The notes under the pieces were generated by a model. The model searched no databases and was not told where the DNA came from. It saw only the letters and a program-made list of their open reading frames with translations. A program made the translations under genes and the position numbers. From the NCBI GenBank assembly GCA_938045295.1, contig CALINO010000073.1, forward strand, positions 1-64,000: 64,000 bases of DNA. Reading direction: 5' to 3'. Below, piece by piece: positions 11,175-22,654 of the stretch; position 1 is the stretch's first letter; the number at the start of each line of letters is the position of its first letter. Source of the stretch: an uncultured Arenicella sp. GTDB lineage: Bacteria > Pseudomonadota > Gammaproteobacteria > Arenicellales > Arenicellaceae.

Positions 11175-12728
11175 ATGAATGTTTTAAGTGAATTGGAAAC
11201 ACTCATTATGTCTAGCGCTGCGTTGGTTTCTCTGGCCTTTTACGTATTATTGATGCTTGGCATAGGCGTATACGCGTTACGCTATTCAAACCAAAACGTA
11301 TCGGGCTTCATGTTGGGAAACCGGCAACTGGGCCCGGGGGTAACCGCGCTGTCAGCAGGCGCTTCTGACATGAGCGCTTGGCTAATGATGGGGGTGCCCG
11401 GCGCTGCGTATGCCAGCGGTTTATCGCTCACATGGCTGCTCGTGGGCTTGGTGGCGGGCGCGTATATGAATTACTTGCTGGTGGCACCGCGCCTTAGAGT
11501 ATTTACGCACGAATTAAATGATGCGTTAACCATTCCCGATTATCTGGAAAAGCGCTTATTAGATAACAGCCACGCACTGCGCCTGTTCGCCTCGGTCGCT
11601 ATTGTGGTGTTTTTTATTCTATACACATCTTCCGGCATGGTTGCCGGTGGAAAGCTGTTTGAAAACGCGTTTGGCTTGCCTTATCAAACCGGTCTATGGG
11701 CAACCGCCGCCGTAGTATTAGCTTACACTTTTATGGGCGGTTTTATGGCCGTAAGCCTGACCGACTTCGTACAAGGCACCATTATTTGCATAGCGCTGAT
11801 CGTTGTTCCGGTCATGGCTTTTACCAGCTTAAATACAGACATTAGTACCAATATTCATGACGCCTCAACATCATTAACCGCAGTCAAGCCAGACTTGCTG
11901 TTAGCCTTAAGCAGCGCTTCGTTACTTAGCGTGTTATCAAGCCTTGCTTGGGGATTAGGCTATGTAGGGCAACCGCATATTATTGTGCGCTTTATGGCAA
12001 TACGCTCATTAGCCGACATATCCACCGCGCGTCGTATTGGCATGAGCTGGATGATTGTGGCCTTGTTGGGTGCCACCGCAACCGGCTTAGTGGGTTCGCT
12101 ATACGCAGCGCAACACAATCTCAGCATTAGCGACCCAGAAACAATTTTTATTGTGCTCTCGCAGGCACTGTTCCACCCATTTATTGCTGGCTTTTTATTG
12201 GCGGCTATTCTGGCGGCAATAATGAGTACTATTTCATCTCAGCTGTTAGTGTCAGCAAGTTCATTAACTGAAGATACGTATCGAGTATTTTTTCGGCGCA
12301 CCGCCAGTCAAAAAGAACTGATATTGGTAGGCCGAATGTGCGTATTGGTGGTGACAATAGTGGCCGCCGTATTGGCGCTTAACCCCAACAACAGCGTGTT
12401 AGGTCTTGTGAGCCATGCATGGGCGGGCTTCGGTGCCACATTTGGCCCGGTGATTATTTTAAGCCTGCACTGGCGAGACTTAAGCAAACAAGGGGCGCTA
12501 GCCGGCATGCTCACCGGAGCCACGGTGGTATTGCTCTGGAGCTACCTGCCGGTGTTACCGCCGATCGAGGGCGGTGAATTAAAACGACCGTTAAACAGCG
12601 AACTGTACTCTCTGCTACCCGGTTTTGTGCTGGCGTGGGCGTCGGCTTATTTAGTAAGTAAACTAACCCCTGCACCCAAACCCGTTTCAGAAAACTTTGA
12701 ACACGCGCATAAAATGATGAGCTCATGA
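11175..12728 (+). CDS. putP: Sodium/proline symporter, PutP family
   Basis: This is an SSS-family sodium:solute symporter in the inner membrane with about 13 membrane segments. The run GNRQLGPGVTALSAGASDMSAWLMMG (about residues 48-73) matches the PutP signature region including sodium-site residues, and FxGGFMAVSLTDFVQGTI (about 185-205) is also PutP-like. The length (517) is close to E. coli PutP (502). A second ATG at 11208 aligns better with the usual N terminus; AGGCAGG precedes the first. The neighbours include an aminotransferase and the arginine-catabolism operon, so the substrate may be proline or a related amino acid. There is no putA in the window. Confidence 0.88.
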   Translation: MNVLSELETLIMSSAALVSLAFYVLLMLGIGVYALRYSNQNVSGFMLGNRQLGPGVTALSAGASDMSAWLMMGVPGAAYASGLSLTWLLVGLVAGAYMNYLLVAPRLRVFTHELNDALTIPDYLEKRLLDNSHALRLFASVAIVVFFILYTSSGMVAGGKLFENAFGLPYQTGLWATAAVVLAYTFMGGFMAVSLTDFVQGTIICIALIVVPVMAFTSLNTDISTNIHDASTSLTAVKPDLLLALSSASLLSVLSSLAWGLGYVGQPHIIVRFMAIRSLADISTARRIGMSWMIVALLGATATGLVGSLYAAQHNLSISDPETIFIVLSQALFHPFIAGFLLAAILAAIMSTISSQLLVSASSLTEDTYRVFFRRTASQKELILVGRMCVLVVTIVAAVLALNPNNSVLGLVSHAWAGFGATFGPVIILSLHWRDLSKQGALAGMLTGATVVLLWSYLPVLPPIEGGELKRPLNSELYSLLPGFVLAWASAYLVSKLTPAPKPVSENFEHAHKMMSS

Positions 12729-13384: not shown

Positions 13385-13409
13385 AACACCACGCGCTAAA
13401 CGTGGTGTT
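13385..13409. terminator. Bidirectional intrinsic terminator-like hairpin
   Basis: AACACCACG (13385-13393) pairs perfectly with CGTGGTGTT (13401-13409) around a seven-base loop. It begins right after the nitroreductase stop, and its loop and 3' arm overlap the last codons of the aminotransferase gene on the minus strand. The T-run is short (three on the plus strand), so efficiency is uncertain. Confidence 0.6.
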
Positions 13410-14772
13410 TCATCACGGCTCGCACGGAGTCTTCGAAACGGTCAATGATGGTATTTACATCGTCTTTATTGGCAATGAGTGGCGGTGAAAAAGCCACCGA
13501 ATCTACCGAAGGTAACGGCCTGGCAATTAAGCCATTTTTATAACATTGCGCCGTCACTTGAGGCGCAATCTTTATGCTCGAGTCAAAGAAAGTTTTACTG
13601 TCGCTGTCTTGCATCAGTTGAACAGCGGCAAGCATGCCCTGCCCTCTGACCTGCCCCACAAAACCGTCTTGCTTAAATCGTTCGGTTAACTGTTGATGAA
13701 AATACGCACCCACGTCGGCCGACTGCTCTACTAAGCCTTCTTTTTCTATGATGTCTAAGTTTGCCATCGCCACGGCCGCACCTATTGGGTGGCCTGAATA
13801 AGTGTAGCCGTGCGCAAAGCTGCCATACTTGGCTGAACCTTGTTTAATCACATCCCATATTTTTTCGGTGATAAACGACGCTGAAAACGGGAAATAGCCA
13901 CTGGTAAGCGCTTTTGCCGTGGTGATCATATCAGGCTTAATGCCATACACATCGCTGCCAAACCACGCACCTAAGCGCCCATAACCGCACACCACTTCAT
14001 CGGCGATAAACAAAATATCGTACTTTTGAGTGACTTTTTGTATTTCTGTAAAATACCCGTCGGGTGGGGTAATGACACCGCCAGCGCCCATAACTGGCTC
14101 AGCAATAAATGCGCCTATTGTGTCAGCACCGTGCCTCAGTATTAACGCTTCAAGTTCGTTGGCGCGGCGAACAGAGAATGCATGTTCGCTCTCATTGCTT
14201 TTTGCATGGCGGAAATAGTCTGGCGACTCAGTATGAATCACGCCGTCGATGGGCAAATTAAAGTCTTTATGAAACGACGGCAAGCCAGTTAAGCTGGCCG
14301 TGGCAATTGAGGTGCCATGATAGGCCTGCCAACGAGAAATGATTTTACGCTTTTGTGGCTTACCAATCAGATTGTGGTAATACCAAACAATTTTCATTAA
14401 GGTGTCGTTGCCGTCTGAGCCGCCACTGGCAAACAATACTTTTGACATAGCCTTAGGCGCGAGTTCTAACAACCGTTCGGCCAATTCAATTTGCGGCACG
14501 TTCGACATGCCGGTGAACGTATGATAGTAGCCCATGTTACTGGCTGCCGCATGCATGGCATCGGCTAGCTCGCGCCGGCCATACCCCACGTTCACACACC
14601 ATAAACCAGCAACCGCATCAATCAATGAATTGCCGTCAGTGTCTTGCAAGCTAATACCGTGCCCAGACTGCATGATTCTAGACCCCGTTTTGGCAAACTC
14701 ATTGGCATTGGTTGACGGGTGCAAAATGGTATTCGCGTCCAGTTGCTTTAAATCTTTTTGTTGGTTTTCCAT
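13396..14772 (-). CDS. Class III PLP aminotransferase (omega-amino acid:pyruvate type)
   Basis: The 458-residue protein is a fold-type I, class III aminotransferase. It has GLWCVNVGYGRREL near residue 50, the phosphate-site SGGSDGNDT near 115, the YHG stacking motif (AYHGTSIATASLTG) near 150, the cofactor Asp in FIADEVVCGYGRLG near 255, and the PLP lysine in TAKALTSGYFP near 285. It resembles beta-alanine/putrescine:pyruvate transaminases more than the shorter ArgD/AstC enzymes. It is transcribed away from astA across a 311 bp gap, and the AST operon lacks astC, so it could supply the succinylornithine step or handle agmatine/putrescine products. The ATG at 14772 is preferred over an in-frame TTG three codons upstream; neither has a good ribosome-binding site. 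Confidence 0.85.
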   Translation of the reverse strand: MENQQKDLKQLDANTILHPSTNANEFAKTGSRIMQSGHGISLQDTDGNSLIDAVAGLWCVNVGYGRRELADAMHAAASNMGYYHTFTGMSNVPQIELAERLLELAPKAMSKVLFASGGSDGNDTLMKIVWYYHNLIGKPQKRKIISRWQAYHGTSIATASLTGLPSFHKDFNLPIDGVIHTESPDYFRHAKSNESEHAFSVRRANELEALILRHGADTIGAFIAEPVMGAGGVITPPDGYFTEIQKVTQKYDILFIADEVVCGYGRLGAWFGSDVYGIKPDMITTAKALTSGYFPFSASFITEKIWDVIKQGSAKYGSFAHGYTYSGHPIGAAVAMANLDIIEKEGLVEQSADVGAYFHQQLTERFKQDGFVGQVRGQGMLAAVQLMQDSDSKTFFDSSIKIAPQVTAQCYKNGLIARPLPSVDSVAFSPPLIANKDDVNTIIDRFEDSVRAVMKHHV

Positions 14773-15083
14773 GGAGATCAATGAGCACTGTTGTTGTTAA
14801 GGTTTCCCTCAAATTAGCACAACATTGGCCCCGCTCACGCTGGGTGTATTAATTCGATATATGATTCTTTAAAGCTCGAGATATGCAAAAAAATCTGCGG
14901 ACTTAGCCGTTTTCACCGTGATTAATTTAACCGCACTGGAAAACTCTGAGAACGCTAAATAATGGTTCAGCACAAATTTCGGCGAAGCCAATCATTAACC
15001 GCAGAATCTAGATTGAGGCAACACGCTTTCAGCGCCTAATTTTGTAAAGCCTATGAAAAAATGGCTGAAACAGGAGACGTTGA
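14773..15083. promoter_or_regulatory. Divergent promoter region between the aminotransferase and astA
   Basis: These 311 bp hold no gene. They must contain promoters for both directions. AGGAG eight bases before the astA ATG is the only sure signal. The sequence around 14847-14870 (attaattcgatatatgattc) is AT-rich and loosely resembles an ArgR box half-site pair, but it does not fit the consensus well enough to claim one. Confidence 0.4.
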
Positions 15084-16118
15084 ATGATAACCGTTAGAAC
15101 GGTGCGCGAGTCTGATATAGAAGGCGTACTAAACTTAGCCAAACAAGCATTCCCGGGCATGACCACTTTGCCACCGAATCGAGCCGTACTGGCGAGCAAA
15201 CTTAAAAAGTCAGTTGAGAGCATTAACAAACGTGTGCAAACGCCCAATGACGAAGCTTACTTTCTGGTTATGGAAGACTCTGATAGTAACGCCATTATTG
15301 GCACCTCTGCCATTTTGGCTTGTTTAGGCAGTGTGGATGAATTTTATTCCTACAAACTGAATAAGGTTACCCACAGCTGTAAAGAGTTGGATAAAAAAAT
15401 AACGGTTGAAACTTTGAACTTGTCAAACCACTTCGAAGGGTTTGCGGAAGTGGCCACCTTATATTTAAACCCAGCTTACCGTAAAAACGGTAATGGAAAA
15501 TTATTAGCACGCAGCCGTTATCTTTTTATGGCGCAATTTCGCCAGCGTTTTCCTGAACGTGTGATGGCCGATTTACGTGGTTACTTTGATGACAACGGCT
15601 GCTCACCTTTTTGGGAGGCCGTTGGGCAACATTTTTTTGATATGCCATTTTCCGACGCCGATTTGTATGGCGCTATTAACGGCAATCAATTCATTGCCGA
15701 CTTAATGCCCAAGCACCCACTGTATGTGAATATGCTGCCTCGCCCTGCGCAAGCCGTTATTGGCCAACCCAATGTAAAAGGAAAACCGGCCTTAAGCATG
15801 CTTAAGCAAGAAGGTTTTCGATGGAATGGTCACGTTGACATCTTTGACGCCGCACCGAGTGTAGACACAAAAATTGATGACATTATCTCAATCAAAAACA
15901 GCCTCAGTGCCCCCGTGATTGACATCCAGAAGAACAGCATGACCAATATTGGAGGAGCAAACCAACACATCGCGGTTATTGCAAACAGTGACATTCGCAA
16001 CTTTAGCGCCTGCGTGGCAATGGTGTCAGTAGAAGAAGGCGGCATAAGGCTGCCATCGTCAACATTACAAGCACTGAACATAGAAGTTGGTGATTCCGTG
16101 CGCTACTTGCTTAACTAA
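15084..16118 (+). CDS. astA: Arginine N-succinyltransferase
   Basis: AstA transfers succinyl from succinyl-CoA to the alpha-amino group of arginine, the committed first step of the AST pathway of arginine degradation. The 344-residue length and conserved blocks agree with the family: RESDIEGVLNLAKQAFPGMTTLPP near the start, HFEGFAEVATLYLNPAYRKNGNGKLLARSRYLF (about 113-145, acyl-CoA-binding GNAT core), VMADLRGYFDDNGCSPFWEAVGQHFFDM (about 160-187) and MLPRPAQAVIGQPN. The start is set by AGGAG eight bases upstream. It is the first gene of a tight operon astA-astB-astE-argC-argB. This protein is the strongest sign that the operon degrades rather than makes arginine. Confidence 0.95.
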   Translation: MITVRTVRESDIEGVLNLAKQAFPGMTTLPPNRAVLASKLKKSVESINKRVQTPNDEAYFLVMEDSDSNAIIGTSAILACLGSVDEFYSYKLNKVTHSCKELDKKITVETLNLSNHFEGFAEVATLYLNPAYRKNGNGKLLARSRYLFMAQFRQRFPERVMADLRGYFDDNGCSPFWEAVGQHFFDMPFSDADLYGAINGNQFIADLMPKHPLYVNMLPRPAQAVIGQPNVKGKPALSMLKQEGFRWNGHVDIFDAAPSVDTKIDDIISIKNSLSAPVIDIQKNSMTNIGGANQHIAVIANSDIRNFSACVAMVSVEEGGIRLPSSTLQALNIEVGDSVRYLLN

Positions 16119-16150
16119 CCTCAAACGTTGAACCAGACATTATCAATACT

Positions 16151-17491
16151 ATGCTCAGCTACGAAGTGAACTTTGACGGTTTGATTGGCCCCACCCACAA
16201 TTATGGTGGCTTGTCTAATGGCAACATTGCATCAAAGCGCAATGCGCTTACAGTGTCACACCCCAAGCAGGCCGCACTGCAAGGCTTAAAGAAAATGTAT
16301 TTTCTGCGTAGCCTTGGGTTAAAACAAGGTGTGTTATTACCGCAACAAAGGCCGCACTTGCCCAGCTTAAGAGCCTTAGGGTTCAGTGGCTCTGACAAAT
16401 CCATTATTGAACAAGCCTCAAACACCGCACCGGAATTATTGGCCTGTTGTTATTCGGCCTCCTGCATGTGGACGGCTAATTCCGCTACCGTATCGCCCAG
16501 TGCCGATTCGGCCGATGGCAAAGTGCATTTTACGGCGGCCAATCTATCCAATATGTTTCATCGCTCTATTGAACACGGCAGCACCGCTCAATTATTGCGT
16601 GCAATCTTCGCTGACCCAGCCCATTTCAGCCACCACAATCCACTGCCGTCAGGCAGTCACTTTAGTGACGAAGGCGCAGCGAACCATAACCGTCTAAGCC
16701 AAGAATACGGCAAACCCGGCGTTCAATTGTTTGTGTACGGCCGCTATGCATTTCGCCCAAACACACGCATGGCTAGCAAGTTTCCGAGTCGACAAACATA
16801 CGAAGCCTCATTGGCAATCAGCCGCCTGCATCAACTGGATGCTAATGCGGTTGTGTTTGCACAACAAAACCCAAACATTATCGACGCAGGGGCATTTCAT
16901 AATGACGTCGTGAGCGTGTCCAATTTAAATACGTTGTTCATGCACGAAGAGGCGTTTGTCGAGAGCACAACAATGCAGGCGCAGTTAAAAGCAACGTTTG
17001 GCTCACAAGAGTTGCACATTATAGAAGTGCCCACCGCGCAAGTTTCACTTGAAAATGCCGTAACCTCTTATTTGTTTAATTCGCAATTAGTGAAACGCCC
17101 TGACCAAGACGGCATGACCTTGGTACTGCCAGAAGAAAGTCGAGAAAATGAACGTGTTTTTGCCTACCTACAATCCTTGCTATCGCAAGACACACCGATT
17201 AAAGACATACAGTTTGTGGATGTGCGCCAAAGCATGCAAAACGGTGGCGGCCCAGCGTGCTTGCGCTTGCGAGTGGCGTTAAACGAATCTGAGTTACAAG
17301 CACTGAACTCACGCTTTTTAATTGACGATGAGCGCTTACGGACACTAAGCAATTGGGTAGAAAAACACTATCGCGATGAATTACACCCAAACGATTTAGC
17401 CGACCCCTCATTAGCCAATGAGAGCTTCACGGCACTGGATGAATTAACGCAAATTTTTGACTTGGGTTCATTCTATGAGTTTCAAAAATAG
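16151..17491 (+). CDS. astB: N-succinylarginine dihydrolase
   Basis: AstB hydrolyses N2-succinylarginine to N2-succinylornithine, two ammonia and CO2. At 446 residues it has the family length. The N terminus EVNFDGLIGPTHNYGGLSNGN is diagnostic, as are FTAANLSNMFHRSIEH (about 127-142), DEGAANHNRLS, FHNDVVSVSN with a catalytic His (about 251) and GGGPACLRLRV with the nucleophile C370. It belongs to the guanidino-group-modifying (amidinotransferase) superfamily. It starts 32 bases after astA and ends three bases before the astE start, consistent with one transcript. Confidence 0.95.
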   Translation: MLSYEVNFDGLIGPTHNYGGLSNGNIASKRNALTVSHPKQAALQGLKKMYFLRSLGLKQGVLLPQQRPHLPSLRALGFSGSDKSIIEQASNTAPELLACCYSASCMWTANSATVSPSADSADGKVHFTAANLSNMFHRSIEHGSTAQLLRAIFADPAHFSHHNPLPSGSHFSDEGAANHNRLSQEYGKPGVQLFVYGRYAFRPNTRMASKFPSRQTYEASLAISRLHQLDANAVVFAQQNPNIIDAGAFHNDVVSVSNLNTLFMHEEAFVESTTMQAQLKATFGSQELHIIEVPTAQVSLENAVTSYLFNSQLVKRPDQDGMTLVLPEESRENERVFAYLQSLLSQDTPIKDIQFVDVRQSMQNGGGPACLRLRVALNESELQALNSRFLIDDERLRTLSNWVEKHYRDELHPNDLADPSLANESFTALDELTQIFDLGSFYEFQK

Positions 17492-17494
17492 GCC

Positions 17495-18490
17495 ATGCGT
17501 TTTTTAGAACACACTCTCTCACACCCGGTGCATGCCAAACCGCAGTCACTAGTACTGAGCAATGGGGTTAGCGTAACCCTGATTGATACCGGCCTATTGC
17601 GCATTAGCCCGCCCGAGCCAGCAAATCAACGTGTACTTATTTCGTGCGGCATTCACGGTAATGAAACTGCGCCCATGGAAATAGTAGATCACCTATTTCA
17701 AGAAATTCAAAGCGGCAAGTTAGCCGTGGTTAGTGATGTTTTATTTATCATTGGTAACCCACCCGCTGCCAATCGCGCTGAGCGCTTTATTGATGAAAAC
17801 TTAAACCGTTTATTTTCAGGAAAACATGAAACGTCGACTACCGCGGAAGCCAAACGGGCATCGCTAATTGAGCAAGTAACGCGTACTTTTTTTAGCGGCC
17901 AGCCAACACGCCGTTTGCATTACGACTTGCACACCGCCATTCGAGGTTCAAAGCTCGACAAGTTTGCGGTCTACCCCTATCTGCATCAACGCAAGTGGTC
18001 GCTCACGCAATTGGCTTTTTTAGAATCGTGCGGCATTGAAGGCGTTTTATTTTCCAATCAACCGTCGGGCACCTATTCCTACTTCACCAGCAATGAGTTT
18101 GGCGCACATTCATTCACGTTAGAATTGGGTAAGGTTCGTAAATTTGGTGACAACGACTTAAGCAATTTCAGCGCGGTGTTCGATGGCTTAAAACGTCTTA
18201 TTTCGGGCAACGAATCGTTTCAAGAAATGCCGCGAACAATACAAACCTTTAGCGTTGTTGAAGAAGTGATTAAACGCACCGAAGCATTTCAACTGCACAT
18301 TGACGACAACGCTGAAAATTTCACTGAGTTTTGCCAAGGCACCTTATTGGCCAGCGACGTGGGCTATGAATACCGAACACATTGCGATGGAGAACGCTTT
18401 GTATTTCCAATCAGCAATGTGCCCTGTGGCCAGCGCGCCATGTTGGTTGTTGCACCAACGAGCATTCCTTTCACACACACTGAGCGTTAA
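17495..18490 (+). CDS. astE: Succinylglutamate desuccinylase
   Basis: AstE is the zinc-dependent last step of the AST pathway, cutting N-succinylglutamate to glutamate and succinate. The zinc-binding CGIHGNETAPMEI (about 50-62, His and Glu ligands), DENLNRLF (about 94-101), the third ligand His in LHYDLHTAIRGS (about 145-156) and the catalytic Glu in FTLELGKVRKFGDND (about 208-222) fit the AstE/aspartoacylase family, as does the length of 331. The gene is spaced three bases from both astB and argC. Since the same desuccinylase could also act in a succinylated biosynthetic route, its presence alone does not settle the direction of the pathway. Confidence 0.94.
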   Translation: MRFLEHTLSHPVHAKPQSLVLSNGVSVTLIDTGLLRISPPEPANQRVLISCGIHGNETAPMEIVDHLFQEIQSGKLAVVSDVLFIIGNPPAANRAERFIDENLNRLFSGKHETSTTAEAKRASLIEQVTRTFFSGQPTRRLHYDLHTAIRGSKLDKFAVYPYLHQRKWSLTQLAFLESCGIEGVLFSNQPSGTYSYFTSNEFGAHSFTLELGKVRKFGDNDLSNFSAVFDGLKRLISGNESFQEMPRTIQTFSVVEEVIKRTEAFQLHIDDNAENFTEFCQGTLLASDVGYEYRTHCDGERFVFPISNVPCGQRAMLVVAPTSIPFTHTER

Positions 18491-18493
18491 ATC

Positions 18494-19552
18494 ATGAAAA
18501 AAACACAGGTTTCCATTATTGGCGGCTCTGGCTTTTTGTCAGCCGAGCTGTTGCGCAATTTACTAGTGCGAGACGACGTCGACATTCTTCGGGTGTCAAG
18601 CAAAGACCATATCGGGCAGACCATTGGGCAAGTGCACCGCACGTTTTATGGCCTCAGTGACTTGGTGTTCGAAGACATTTCCCCCAGTGAATGTGTGGCT
18701 GGCGCCGACATTGTCTTTTTAGCCATGCCTCACATTATTACCGCCAAAGTGGCCATGGAGTTGTTTGATAAAGAGGTGAAAATCATCGACCTGTCTGGCG
18801 ACTTTAGATTAAACAACTTAGCAGACTACACGCGCGTTTACGCCCCCCAGCACCCTTGCCCTGAAAGACTCGGCACCTTCACTTATGGTATGCCAGAGCT
18901 ATATGCCGATGAAATTACAAAGTCAAAACACGTGGCTAACCCTGGTTGCTTTGCCACCTGCATTGCCGTTTCACTACTGCCGATTGCGAAGCTTGGTCAG
19001 CTTTCAAATAAGAACGTACGTTTAGTGGCACTGACTGGCTCCAGCGGTTCTGGTGTGCACCCTCAAGTTGGCAACCATCACACCGTACGCAGTAATAATA
19101 TTAAAGCGTACAAGGTATTCAACCATCAACATACACCGGAAATTTCACAAACACTGAACGCCGCAGGCGCAGAAGGCGTGTCGCTTGATTTCGTGCCGGT
19201 GTCAGCGCCATTAAGCCGAGGCATGATGTCAATTGCGCAACTCGATGCCCCCAAAGACATGAGCGAAGAGGAGTTACGTTCACACTATGAGGCGGCCTTT
19301 TCCGACTTTCCTCTCATTTGTGTCCTGCCTGCGGGTATGACTCCTGAAGTGGTGGCCGTTAAAAATACTCTGCGAATTGAAATTGGCTTAAACATTAAAA
19401 CCGATGAGGTTACCGGCCAACGAACACTGTGCGTTATTGCCGCGCTGGATAACTTAATTAAAGGCGGGGCTGGGCAAGCCATGCAAAACTTTAATTTAAT
19501 GACGGGTCACGATAACGCGCACCAACTACAACAACCGGCAACGTGGCCATAA
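18494..19552 (+). CDS. argC: N-acyl-gamma-glutamyl-phosphate reductase (ArgC), possibly acting on succinylated substrate
   Basis: ArgC normally reduces N-acetylglutamyl-phosphate to the semialdehyde with NADPH; the reaction is reversible. The 352-residue protein has the NADP site IIGGSGFLSAELLR (about 8-21), the nucleophile C152 in ANPGCFATC, the catalytic His region SGVHPQVGNHH (about 190-200) and FNHQHTPEI (about 214-222). It has GCFAT where most ArgC proteins have GCYPT; from memory, GCFAT is seen in ArgC of Bacteroidetes, which use N-succinylated intermediates. It lies three bases after astE in an operon with no astD, so it could oxidise succinylglutamate semialdehyde with phosphate. A dedicated biosynthetic role remains possible. 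Confidence 0.9.
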   Translation: MKKTQVSIIGGSGFLSAELLRNLLVRDDVDILRVSSKDHIGQTIGQVHRTFYGLSDLVFEDISPSECVAGADIVFLAMPHIITAKVAMELFDKEVKIIDLSGDFRLNNLADYTRVYAPQHPCPERLGTFTYGMPELYADEITKSKHVANPGCFATCIAVSLLPIAKLGQLSNKNVRLVALTGSSGSGVHPQVGNHHTVRSNNIKAYKVFNHQHTPEISQTLNAAGAEGVSLDFVPVSAPLSRGMMSIAQLDAPKDMSEEELRSHYEAAFSDFPLICVLPAGMTPEVVAVKNTLRIEIGLNIKTDEVTGQRTLCVIAALDNLIKGGAGQAMQNFNLMTGHDNAHQLQQPATWP

Positions 19553-19553
19553 T

Positions 19554-19601
19554 ATGTTTGCTTGGTTACCTTTGCTAAGAGTACTACGAGTTCAACCATG
19601 A
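19554..19601 (+). other. Possible 15-codon coupling ORF between argC and argB
   Basis: An ATG two bases after the argC stop opens a 15-codon frame (MFAWLPLLRVLRVQP) whose TGA overlaps the argB start codon as ATGA. The arrangement would let ribosomes finishing the mini-ORF restart at argB, which itself has no clear ribosome-binding site. It holds two Arg codons and no run of them, so an attenuation role is not obvious. It may be chance. Confidence 0.3.
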
Positions 19602-20455
19602 CCACTGCTCACAACAAACCCATTGCCGTGATTAAAGTGGGCGGCGATATGGTGGCGCAAGCAGCGCAACGCAAATCTTTAGCACGCAATGTGGCGGGCT
19701 TATTTAATGCCGGGTGGCAGTGTTTAATACTGCACGGTGGTGGCCCTCAAGTCAGCGCGCTGCAAAAAGCACACGGCCTAAGGCCGCATAAAGTTGAAGG
19801 CCGGCGTGTTACCAATAAGGCCGACTTACAAGTAATAAAACAAGCCCTGTGTGGTGAAGTGAACGTTGATTTAGTCTCTGCGCTGTTAGCAGAGGGCTTG
19901 CCGGCCTTTGGCTGTCATGGCGCTTCAGCAACGTTAATTGAGGCCAATAAACGCCCCCCGATGAAACTCAATACTCATGGCATGGTTGACTTTGGGGAAG
20001 TGGGAGACGTGGCCTCAATCAACCATCAATTGCTTAACGCCATGTTCAGCATCAACGTCATACCGGTTATTGCCTCGCTAGGCGTGAGTAAGAACGGGCG
20101 TATCTTTAACATTAATGCCGACACCACGGTCGCTGCCATTGCCAAATCACTGAAGGCGGATCTATTAATTTTATGCACTCAGGTGGGCGGTGTTTTTCAT
20201 GACATCAGTGATCCGTCCAGTCGAATAGCAACGATTAACCCTCGCCAAGCTGAGCAGTTAATTGAACAAGGCATTATCCGCGACGGAATGATCCCAAAGG
20301 TGCAGGAAGCACTCACACTGCTGTCGCAAGGCGTGAAAGAAATCATCATTACCAACGCATCGAAACCCAACAACTTCATCACGCTTGGCCAGTTTGTCAC
20401 ACATGGTAAGGCAGAAGCCCAACATGGCACACGGCTAGTGCCAGACAATGATTGA
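19598..20455 (+). CDS. argB: N-acylglutamate kinase (ArgB), possibly run in reverse
   Basis: ArgB phosphorylates the gamma-carboxyl of N-acetylglutamate with ATP. The 285-residue protein is an amino-acid-kinase fold with IKVGGDMV (ATP phosphate loop), LHGGGPQVSAL (substrate loop), GRRVTNKADLQVI, NINADTTVAAIA and AEQLIEQGIIRDGMIPKVQEAL near the C terminus. It lacks the long N-terminal helix of arginine-inhibited kinases and resembles the short, arginine-insensitive kind. The ATG at 19598 matches family starts; a TTG twelve codons upstream would add an unmatched tail. In reverse it would make ATP from succinylglutamyl-phosphate, completing a phosphorylating bypass of AstD in this operon. Confidence 0.9.
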   Translation: MTTAHNKPIAVIKVGGDMVAQAAQRKSLARNVAGLFNAGWQCLILHGGGPQVSALQKAHGLRPHKVEGRRVTNKADLQVIKQALCGEVNVDLVSALLAEGLPAFGCHGASATLIEANKRPPMKLNTHGMVDFGEVGDVASINHQLLNAMFSINVIPVIASLGVSKNGRIFNINADTTVAAIAKSLKADLLILCTQVGGVFHDISDPSSRIATINPRQAEQLIEQGIIRDGMIPKVQEALTLLSQGVKEIIITNASKPNNFITLGQFVTHGKAEAQHGTRLVPDND

Positions 20456-20878
20456 CGCTAAGACTAAATTTCCACGGCACGTTTACTACAACAACAAACA
20501 GCGTAAACACAAATTTATAGCCACCAATTTTCATTACTATGAATAACCAATATTGATGATTAATAAACGCTATTCGGTTAAATGCGTTGACCTATTTAAT
20601 AAAGTGTTAATCTTATTTGTGTACAAAAGTTAATGGTCCTGGGGACATAACTAATCAAGATGAATAGGGAAATAGCAATTCGTCTGTGCCCATAATAATG
20701 GCTAATTAGAAACTTAAGTACTTGTAAATACGGGTAATAGAAATAGCTTTAGGAAAATAGCTTGGTCATGACAGCAGGGTGCATCTGACGTTCTAATAGA
20801 TTAAGTAACTTGTCAATAAAGCCGGTAAGCCACGACATTTCCCGCTCAACCTAACCAATAGTTAATGAGGTGAGTCAA
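20456..20878. other. Gene-free region before the haloperoxidase
   Basis: These 423 bp are AT-rich with no convincing gene or terminator. TTGACC at 20587 with TAATCT at 20608 is a weak promoter candidate with short spacing. AGGTGA at 20868-20873 is the ribosome-binding site of the haloperoxidase gene. Confidence 0.35.
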
Positions 20879-22654
20879 ATGAAAGACAACACACAATCGG
20901 AATCAAACACGGACAATATCATCAGTAAACAGTCCGCTGGCGGCTCTTATAAGTCCGCTGACGGCCCTCCTAAAAAAGAGGCACGCAGGACATTTTTAAA
21001 ATCAAGCGTAGGTGTTAGTACGTTGTTAGCAACCGGCGCTAGTTTAACCGCAGCCAGTGGGTTGCATGCGCAAGGCCTAACCCCCTTACAACCAACGGGC
21101 GGTATCGACAACGATTACCGCGCGCTGCAGGCGGCAAATTTAAAACTCACCATGGCTGAAGACCACTTTGGCGAAACAATTTTATTGCAAGACCAAGAAA
21201 GCAATGAAGACGAAGGCCGTTATGAAGACGACCGGTTTTACGCCAGCTACAGCAAGTCTTTGCCATGCAATCAATACGGCGAGGTTCAACCCAGTGCGTT
21301 TAGAAAACTTCGTCGCGCACTTCGCCGTGGCCGAGAAGAAGATTTTAATAACATCGTGCTGCACGCGCTCGACAGCCGCCCATTGGTAAGCCCACAAGCC
21401 TCGTTCAAATTTGAGACTTGCGGTTTAGACAGCCACGGCACACGCATGGCACCGTCGCATACATTCCGCAGCGCGGAAATAGCCGCTGAAACCGCCGAAG
21501 TCTATTGGCAAGCCATTACCAGAGATGTGCCCTACCTTGATTTTCAAACCAATTCTTTGATTGGCGAAGCCGTGGCTGACTTAAATAATTTTTCAGCCAC
21601 ACCTGGCGCAACCAATTTCGGCGCCACCGACGTTGACCTATTATTTCGAGGTGAAACACCGGGTGATTTGGTTGGCCCTTACATCAGTCAGTTTTTATTA
21701 AATGACGTAATATTCGGGCCGGTGGAGTTTGTGCAACGCTACCAACAACCCACCACCGCTCAAGACTTTATGGCCGACACGGCCAATTGGCTCAATGTAC
21801 AACGCGGCGGCACGCCTGCCGAACCCATGACCTTTGATCCAGTGCGGCGCTATATTTACAACGGCCGCACCTTGGGTGAATACGTTCACCGAGACGTGTC
21901 TTTTCAAGCTTATTTAAATGCATGCGCTCAGCTATTAGCACTGGGCAATGATGCCGTTGACCAAGGAAATCCTTACATAAACCAAACTACCACCCAAGAA
22001 GGATTTGTGACCTTTGGCGCGCCGTTTGCGGTTGACCTAGTGACTCGAGTGGCCAATTTAGCCTTCACCGGTGCTTGGTTTCAAAAATGGCGCGTACACC
22101 GTTTTCTTCGCCCAGAAGCGTACGCGGGGCGTGTGCACTTCAACCTTACAGGCTCGCGCAATTATGAATTGCATGGCGACATTTTGAACAGCAATGCGGT
22201 GCAAAAAGTCTTCAGCCAAAATGGCACGTATTTATTGCCTCAAGGTTTTTCTGAAGGCTCGCCAACCCACCCATCGTACCCTGCTGGGCACGCGTGTGTG
22301 GCTGGAGCCTGCGTAACCGCGCTAAAAGCGTACTTCAATGAAGACTATGTCTTAAGCGATACCGTTCAAGCCGACGCCGAAGGCTTGTCGCTCATTCCCT
22401 ACAATGGCCAAGCCCTCACCGTTGGCGGTGAGCTGAACAAGTTAGCCAACAACATTGCACTGGGGCGCGATGCCGCAGGCGTGCATTACCGCCAAGATGG
22501 TATTCAAGGTTTACAAGCCGGCGAGCAACAAGCCATTGCGTACATAAAAGACCAGTCTCGCACTTTAAAAGAAGCCAATAACGACGGTTTTTACCTAACC
22601 AAATTTGATGGCACTCGCATTAATATTAAGAACGGGGTGGTTAGCAACGTGTAA
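20879..22654 (+). CDS. Tat-exported vanadium-dependent haloperoxidase
   Basis: This 591-residue protein is an algal-type vanadium haloperoxidase, which uses peroxide to oxidise halide. The N terminus carries a twin-arginine signal (ARRTFLKSSVG, hydrophobic stretch, LHAQG at about 65), so it should be exported folded. Vanadate-binding motifs are K403 and R411 in KWRVHRFLRPEA, PSYPAGHA at 465-472 with H471 as acid-base His, and ALGRDAAGVHYRQDGIQGL with R530 and the vanadate-linking H536. Ala469 stands where many bromoperoxidases have Ser in PSGH. The ATG is set by AGGTGA at six bases; an in-frame GTG three codons upstream is inside that site. It is a single gene, ending in a strong terminator. 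Halide preference is not predictable. Confidence 0.9.
   Translation: MKDNTQSESNTDNIISKQSAGGSYKSADGPPKKEARRTFLKSSVGVSTLLATGASLTAASGLHAQGLTPLQPTGGIDNDYRALQAANLKLTMAEDHFGETILLQDQESNEDEGRYEDDRFYASYSKSLPCNQYGEVQPSAFRKLRRALRRGREEDFNNIVLHALDSRPLVSPQASFKFETCGLDSHGTRMAPSHTFRSAEIAAETAEVYWQAITRDVPYLDFQTNSLIGEAVADLNNFSATPGATNFGATDVDLLFRGETPGDLVGPYISQFLLNDVIFGPVEFVQRYQQPTTAQDFMADTANWLNVQRGGTPAEPMTFDPVRRYIYNGRTLGEYVHRDVSFQAYLNACAQLLALGNDAVDQGNPYINQTTTQEGFVTFGAPFAVDLVTRVANLAFTGAWFQKWRVHRFLRPEAYAGRVHFNLTGSRNYELHGDILNSNAVQKVFSQNGTYLLPQGFSEGSPTHPSYPAGHACVAGACVTALKAYFNEDYVLSDTVQADAEGLSLIPYNGQALTVGGELNKLANNIALGRDAAGVHYRQDGIQGLQAGEQQAIAYIKDQSRTLKEANNDGFYLTKFDGTRINIKNGVVSNV

Follow-up and report, generated by a model that had tools for sequence, protein, structure and literature searches.

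A 64,000-nucleotide stretch from an uncultured Arenicella sp. (assembly GCA_938045295.1, contig CALINO010000073.1, positions 1 to 64,000; hereafter the window) encodes on its + strand, at 15084-20455, a single five-gene operon, astA-astB-astE-argC-argB, in which genes of the arginine succinyltransferase (AST) pathway are followed by two genes named for arginine biosynthesis. We consider it likely that ArgC and ArgB run in reverse here on N-succinylglutamate semialdehyde, generating NADPH and ATP, in the place of AstD. The five genes and the 3-base gap between astE and argC had been read by a first-pass annotation of the DNA alone, and NCBIfam models confirm the five genes: AstB scores 669 bits (cut-off 538), AstE 355 bits (cut-off 306), ArgC 314 bits (cut-off 234; a member of TIGR01850 with the catalytic Cys and His present), and ArgB 207 bits (cut-off 151; a member of TIGR00761 with the kinase residues present). 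AstA scores 372 bits against the AOST subfamily cut-off of 284 and 353 bits against the AstA equivalog cut-off of 391; because the latter is missed, the model leaves the exact acyl acceptor of AstA undecided. AstA, AstB, and AstE of the AST pathway are all found, AstA at the subfamily level only. The gene order recurs across the genus, and thus the arrangement is not due to chance.

We infer the substrates, direction, cofactor, and ATP yield of the route as follows. AstA would succinylate arginine, AstB would release N-succinylornithine, and an aminotransferase would convert N-succinylornithine to N-succinylglutamate semialdehyde. ArgC would oxidize the semialdehyde at the expense of NADP+ and phosphate, forming N-succinylglutamyl phosphate; ArgB would move the phosphate to ADP, yielding ATP and N-succinylglutamate; and AstE would convert the latter to glutamate and succinate. 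The ATP formed by ArgB would approximately repay the one ATP equivalent spent by AstA as succinyl-CoA. Since this step comes after AstA and AstB and before AstE, its intermediate should carry an N-succinyl group. In glycolysis, glyceraldehyde-3-phosphate dehydrogenase (GAPDH) and phosphoglycerate kinase oxidize an aldehyde via an acyl phosphate to ATP, downhill by ~12 kJ/mol; reverse operation of ArgC and ArgB should therefore be feasible. The ArgB family appears able to accept N-succinylglutamate, because N-succinylglutamate kinase activity is reported for the ArgB of Bacteroides fragilis in the portion of the source available (PMC7311316).

The source genome (G000) totals 2,994,915 bases over 92 contigs, with a completeness of 99.4%; among the matches listed, Arenicella metagenome-assembled genomes (MAGs; 82-86% identity) are the named relatives closest to the window ArgC. 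In a genome-wide profile search, no aldehyde dehydrogenase (ALDH) of G000 reaches the cut-off of the AstD model (TIGR03240), the top score being 249.9 bits vs. 579.3. G000 also encodes a second argC (C12:16873-17901, 34% identical to the operon ArgC) and a second argB (C8:30014-30721, 36% identical to the operon ArgB), as well as a single ArgD-type aminotransferase above the TIGR00707 (ArgD/AstC) cut-off, at C38. A functional astD in a genome with no other argC or argB had been named at the outset as the finding that would speak against an argC/argB bypass of AstD; G000 presents the opposite.

Among relatives, AstD and the argC-argB pair (argCB) behave as alternatives. In a set of 41 genomes (G000 and 40 others), AstB is found in 19, 18 of them above cut-off. 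Thirteen of the 19, all in the genus, encode the operon-type ArgC with a matching ArgB and no AstD above cut-off, the top ALDH scoring 220-283 bits against the AstD model; the operon-type ArgC of G008 is split across two contigs. The other six (G001, G004, G009, G024, G027, and G034) encode AstD at 659-776 bits and have no operon-type ArgC. Exactly one of AstD or argCB is thus present in 19/19 AstB genomes, with both in none and neither in none.

Scanning public genomes more widely with ArgC as the sole criterion, and retaining the best 80 of 173 matches, recovered members of the genus and 23 additional genomes (58-76% identity), including Cellvibrionales and Porticoccaceae/SAR92 MAGs, Exilibacterium, Kangiella, Kangiellaceae, Pleionea, Aliikangiella, Colwellia sp. 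RSH04, IMCC1989, a Desulfobacterales MAG, and others. AstB is found in all 23 (19 above cut-off, G060 and G061 slightly below, G051 and G056 as fragments), and AstD is absent above cut-off in 20; the AstB background in an even class sample is 24 matches in 370 genomes, one of only 19 bits. In the class sample, AstD is encoded by each of the 19 AstB genomes from outside the genus, and none of these has an ArgC of >37% identity to that of the window. Of 61 AstB genomes in total, 33 encode argCB alone, 25 encode AstD alone, three encode both, and none lacks both; because ArgC was the selection criterion for 23 of them, this is not an unbiased frequency. The core idea of the first-pass annotation, that ArgC and ArgB bypass AstD, has held in its distribution predictions as well as in the AstD-less source genome (by cut-off) with its second argC and argB.

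The operon-type ArgC proteins (35 sequences) form one clade (support 100/100) that is distinct from the canonical gammaproteobacterial, clostridial, bacillar, and Bacteroidetes proteins; its nearest neighbors are the ArgC of six genomes with myxobacterial or deltaproteobacterial titles (L161-L166). Operon-type ArgB (34 sequences) likewise forms one clade, with a Shimodaira-Hasegawa-like approximate likelihood-ratio test value of 99 by a quick method. Within loci, argB directly follows argC in 39/39 rows readable for both, representing 33 distinct loci besides the window (locus L142 ends at its contig edge). The argCB pair and astB are not always neighbors, as in Aliikangiella. Chance or hitch-hiking, by which argCB would stand in the operon with no role in arginine breakdown, draws on nothing beyond general possibility; it is very improbable given that a single-clade pair accompanies AstB in 36/36 genomes of several families, even where argCB and astB lie apart (Aliikangiella).

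In an AstB tree of 61 sequences (E. coli included, the G056 fragment excluded), the AstD state changes seven times and the argCB state six times. Across six independent pairs on well-supported branches, argCB changes opposite to AstD in 4-5, in the same direction in none, and without difference in 1-2. AstD and argCB seem to have been exchanged repeatedly, though some branches are long and a paired sign test falls short of 0.05. On balance, we favor the view that the catabolic ArgC-ArgB lineage is a transferable module for substrate-level phosphorylation that swaps with AstD and renders the AST pathway energy-neutral, with a range spanning Arenicella, SAR92/Porticoccaceae, Kangiella/Pleionea/Aliikangiella, Colwellia, and a Desulfobacterales MAG, and that the myxobacterial sister pair may serve an AstB-free pathway. 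In L161-L166, AstB was not found; their sister argC-argB pair (ArgC 44-47% identical) shares the GCFAT motif and ArgB Arg65 described below, and an M20 peptidase lies near it in three loci.

The catalytic residues of ArgC, Cys152 and His213 (window numbering), are invariant in 37/37 aligned sequences, and GCFAT is present in 35/35 operon-type ArgC. This motif had been put forward by the first-pass annotation as a feature of Bacteroidetes ArgC acting on succinylated substrates, an attribution that we reject for the sequences compared: it occurs in 0/13 Bacteroidetes sequences (nine GCYPT, four GCFPT; the genus Bacteroides is outside the 13), and in the ArgC tree the operon-type and Bacteroidetes proteins fall into two distinct groups, each a single clade with 100/100 support. 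The trees (that of ArgB by the quick method) lend no support to a Bacteroidetes origin for either protein of the pair. ArgC position 37 is Lys in 35/35 operon-type sequences and Arg in 16/17 canonical gammaproteobacterial ones; we read this Lys as pointing to NADP use. A search for convergent succinyl-specific ArgC columns gave one shared with Bacteroidetes (the GAGR Arg replaced by Val/Ile) against two and one in controls, which is not above chance; ArgB has one column shared with Bacteroidetes.

ArgB retains K8, N158, D162, and K217 (E. coli numbering), which we take to be the acetylglutamate kinase active-site residues. The N-terminal helix motif and C-terminal motif, presumably the arginine feedback site, are present in 0/34 operon-type ArgB sequences. 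In canonical gammaproteobacterial ArgB, including the second ArgB of G000, the former is found in 13-14/16 and the latter in 12/16. Because a catabolic enzyme should escape inhibition by arginine, this absence fits a catabolic role, without proving it. At ArgB position 65 (E. coli numbering), 34/34 operon-type and 6/6 myxobacterial-type sequences have Arg, 12 Bacteroidetes sequences have His, Gln, or Leu, and 24/27 others have Leu, a pattern that is suggestive only with respect to succinyl specificity.

Several observations weigh against the proposal that ArgC and ArgB stand in for AstD. AstD (799-811 bits) and argCB occur together in three genomes, G048 (Colwellia) and G053 and G056 (Kangiellaceae MAGs), and in Colwellia sp. 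RSH04 they form a single row, astC-astA-astD-astE-argC-argB, with astB elsewhere; therefore, the pair is not strictly an AstD replacement. Such genomes would suit a role for argCB as a supplement to AstD, either an optional ATP-conserving branch or a valve returning succinylglutamate in some growth states, which we nevertheless hold to be quite improbable as a general account, as 33/36 genomes with argCB have no AstD above cut-off. The paired sign test gives a median p of 0.0625 (range 0.0625-0.125). The operon types within Arenicella differ throughout. In the fetched loci, type 1 has an aminotransferase followed by astA-astB-astE-argC-argB, often with an Lrp/AsnC-type regulator alongside (one tested); type 2, in three genus members with AstD, has an ArgD/AstC-like aminotransferase, an M20 peptidase, and astA-astD-astB, with no astE in the stretch. 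AstB is 49-52% identical between the types. Because whole operons differ, a single event may account for most of the mutual exclusion seen inside the genus. Bacteroidetes and bacillar ArgB, and those of L161-L166, likewise have no arginine-sensing motifs, and arguments from putative succinyl-pocket residues are weak.

Further opposing observations concern other ALDHs and the second ArgC. G060, one of the 20 argCB genomes without AstD above cut-off, encodes an ALDH that scores 372 bits, higher than ordinary ALDHs but below the AstD cut-off. In favor of the proposal, a second ArgC is found in 21 of the 23 ArgC-picked genomes, 17 above cut-off, which sets the operon pair apart from the customary biosynthetic pair; of the four below cut-off, G047 and G062 have an in-frame stop, G057 a short match, and G056 a fragment at a contig end. 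G050 and G053 have no second ArgC, only 35- and 64-bit matches that we read as probable aspartate-semialdehyde dehydrogenases. The 220-283-bit ALDHs of all 13 argCB members of the genus, the ALDH of G060, and the lack of another ArgC in G050 and G053 could accommodate a scheme in which a general ALDH elsewhere replaces AstD while the operon argC and argB make ornithine or arginine precursors in the biosynthetic direction, from acetyl or succinyl substrates. ArgC and ArgB do exceed biosynthetic family cut-offs, and Bacteroidetes build arginine via succinylated intermediates, according to the available portion of the source (PMC7311316). We judge this scheme unlikely: G000 has separate argC, argB, and argD, and second ArgC copies are widespread elsewhere; forward flow beside astA and astB would be a futile cycle; and the mutual substitution of argCB and AstD, as well as the missing arginine-sensing motifs, would go unexplained. 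In G050, a Kangiella genome, the operon-type argC is the sole argC found. Kangiella profundi FT102 is reported, in the available part of the source, to have lost arginine biosynthesis (PMC6000758); if G050 is a similar auxotroph, its argCB cannot be biosynthetic.

For the transaminase step of the proposed reverse-ArgC-ArgB route, an aminotransferase that the first-pass annotation had not included lies beside the operon in the window (Table 1), and its nearest PDB chains are named 4-aminobutyrate transaminase. A copy with 75-83% identity adjoins the operon in 10/12 other genus loci fetched, and in five SAR92/Cellvibrionales-type loci (L138 and L140-L143) the aminotransferase gene opens the operon and points the same way as the rest of it. 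An AstC-like enzyme is encoded in the gene row or next to astA in other argCB genomes (one tested against AstC models). The transaminase step is probably performed by this neighboring enzyme, or else by the single ArgD.

Table 1. Genes of the AST-linked operon and the adjacent aminotransferase (window coordinates).
Gene or product	Position	Strand	Remarks
Class III aminotransferase, PRK07482/PRK06105 group	13396..14781	-	NCBIfam; divergent to operon; candidate N-succinylornithine transaminase in AstC's stead (putative function)
astA, arginine N-succinyltransferase	15084..16118	+	Above AOST subfamily cut-off, below AstA equivalog cut-off
astB, N-succinylarginine dihydrolase	16151..17491	+	Above equivalog cut-off
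astE, succinylglutamate desuccinylase	17495..18490	+	Above equivalog cut-off
argC, separate AST-linked clade	18494..19552	+	Proposed N-succinylglutamate-semialdehyde dehydrogenase (phosphorylating)
argB, clade matching that of argC	19562..20455	+	Proposed N-succinylglutamate kinase run toward ATP; may start at in-frame ATG 19598 instead of TTG 19562

Upstream of the arginine genes, the window encodes a PutP-type sodium/proline symporter (11175-12728), which may belong with them to one region of amino-acid use. Downstream is a 594-amino-acid protein (20870-22654) that matches nothing in Pfam or NCBIfam; it begins with a twin-arginine-like segment and by reading resembles vanadium haloperoxidase/PAP2-type proteins. 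In many AstD-type AST rows (L111, L112, L113, L123, L127, and L344-L352), astE is not in the fetched stretch and an M20-type peptidase stands by astA; that of L112 is above the PRK07338-group cut-off (one tested; L111, L113, and L127 by reading). This peptidase is likely an alternative N-succinylglutamate desuccinylase. In several genus members (L117, L118, L120, L122, and L129), the genes after the operon were read as acyl-CoA dehydrogenases, a 3-hydroxyacyl-CoA dehydrogenase, and a thiolase; the window has none of these at the corresponding place. In an order-mate (L354; G038:C57), a small LysW-like protein is encoded with ligase-like, ArgC-like, ArgB-like, ArgD-like, and glutamine-amidotransferase-like genes (names by reading), a set that looks like an amino-group-carrier system; second ArgC/ArgB pairs similar to those of L354 occur in G022, G026, G030, G031, G033, G036, and G040 (gene contents from L354 only).

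If the proposed reverse operation is correct, biosynthetic enzymes have been recruited in reverse for energy conservation in amino-acid catabolism, and some of the lineages concerned, such as SAR92, are common in the sea. NCBIfam labels these genes as arginine biosynthesis, and therefore metabolic models would score the genomes as without the AstD step; those in which the operon-type argC is the sole argC would perhaps be scored as arginine prototrophs. AstD and ArgC-ArgB would also provide a clean pair of alternatives with which to study the conditions under which a cell gives up an irreversible step to gain ATP. Judged by title and the start of the abstract, no proposal of ArgC or ArgB in the AST pathway was found in the open-access literature, with subscription journals mostly outside this scope; in the main text of the catabolic GapMind paper (PMC9007349), astD, argC, and succinylglutam- are absent. 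We file the operon as a variant AST pathway, new within the literature searched, with two enzymes proposed to carry out the AstD step.

The operon resembles astCADBE of E. coli (AST pathway) in having AstA, AstB, and AstE homologs in one operon, but has argC and argB instead of an AstD above cut-off, and its aminotransferase is of a different subfamily from AstC. Its ArgC and ArgB share with those of the N-acetyl route of arginine biosynthesis family-model scores above cut-off and retained catalytic residues, but they form their own clades, have only 34% (ArgC) and 36% (ArgB) identity to the second copies in the genome, and lack arginine-sensing motifs. As described in the portion of the source available, the succinylated biosynthesis of Bacteroidetes (PMC7311316) uses ArgB and ArgC on N-succinyl substrates, as proposed here. 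In the sequences aligned, Val or Ile replaces Arg in the ArgC GAGR motif of both systems; however, the Bacteroidetes route is biosynthetic, its ArgC lies elsewhere in the tree, and it has GCYPT or GCFPT rather than GCFAT. The closest functional parallel may be GAPDH with phosphoglycerate kinase, in which an aldehyde likewise passes through an acyl phosphate to ATP, a likeness of logic rather than of descent.

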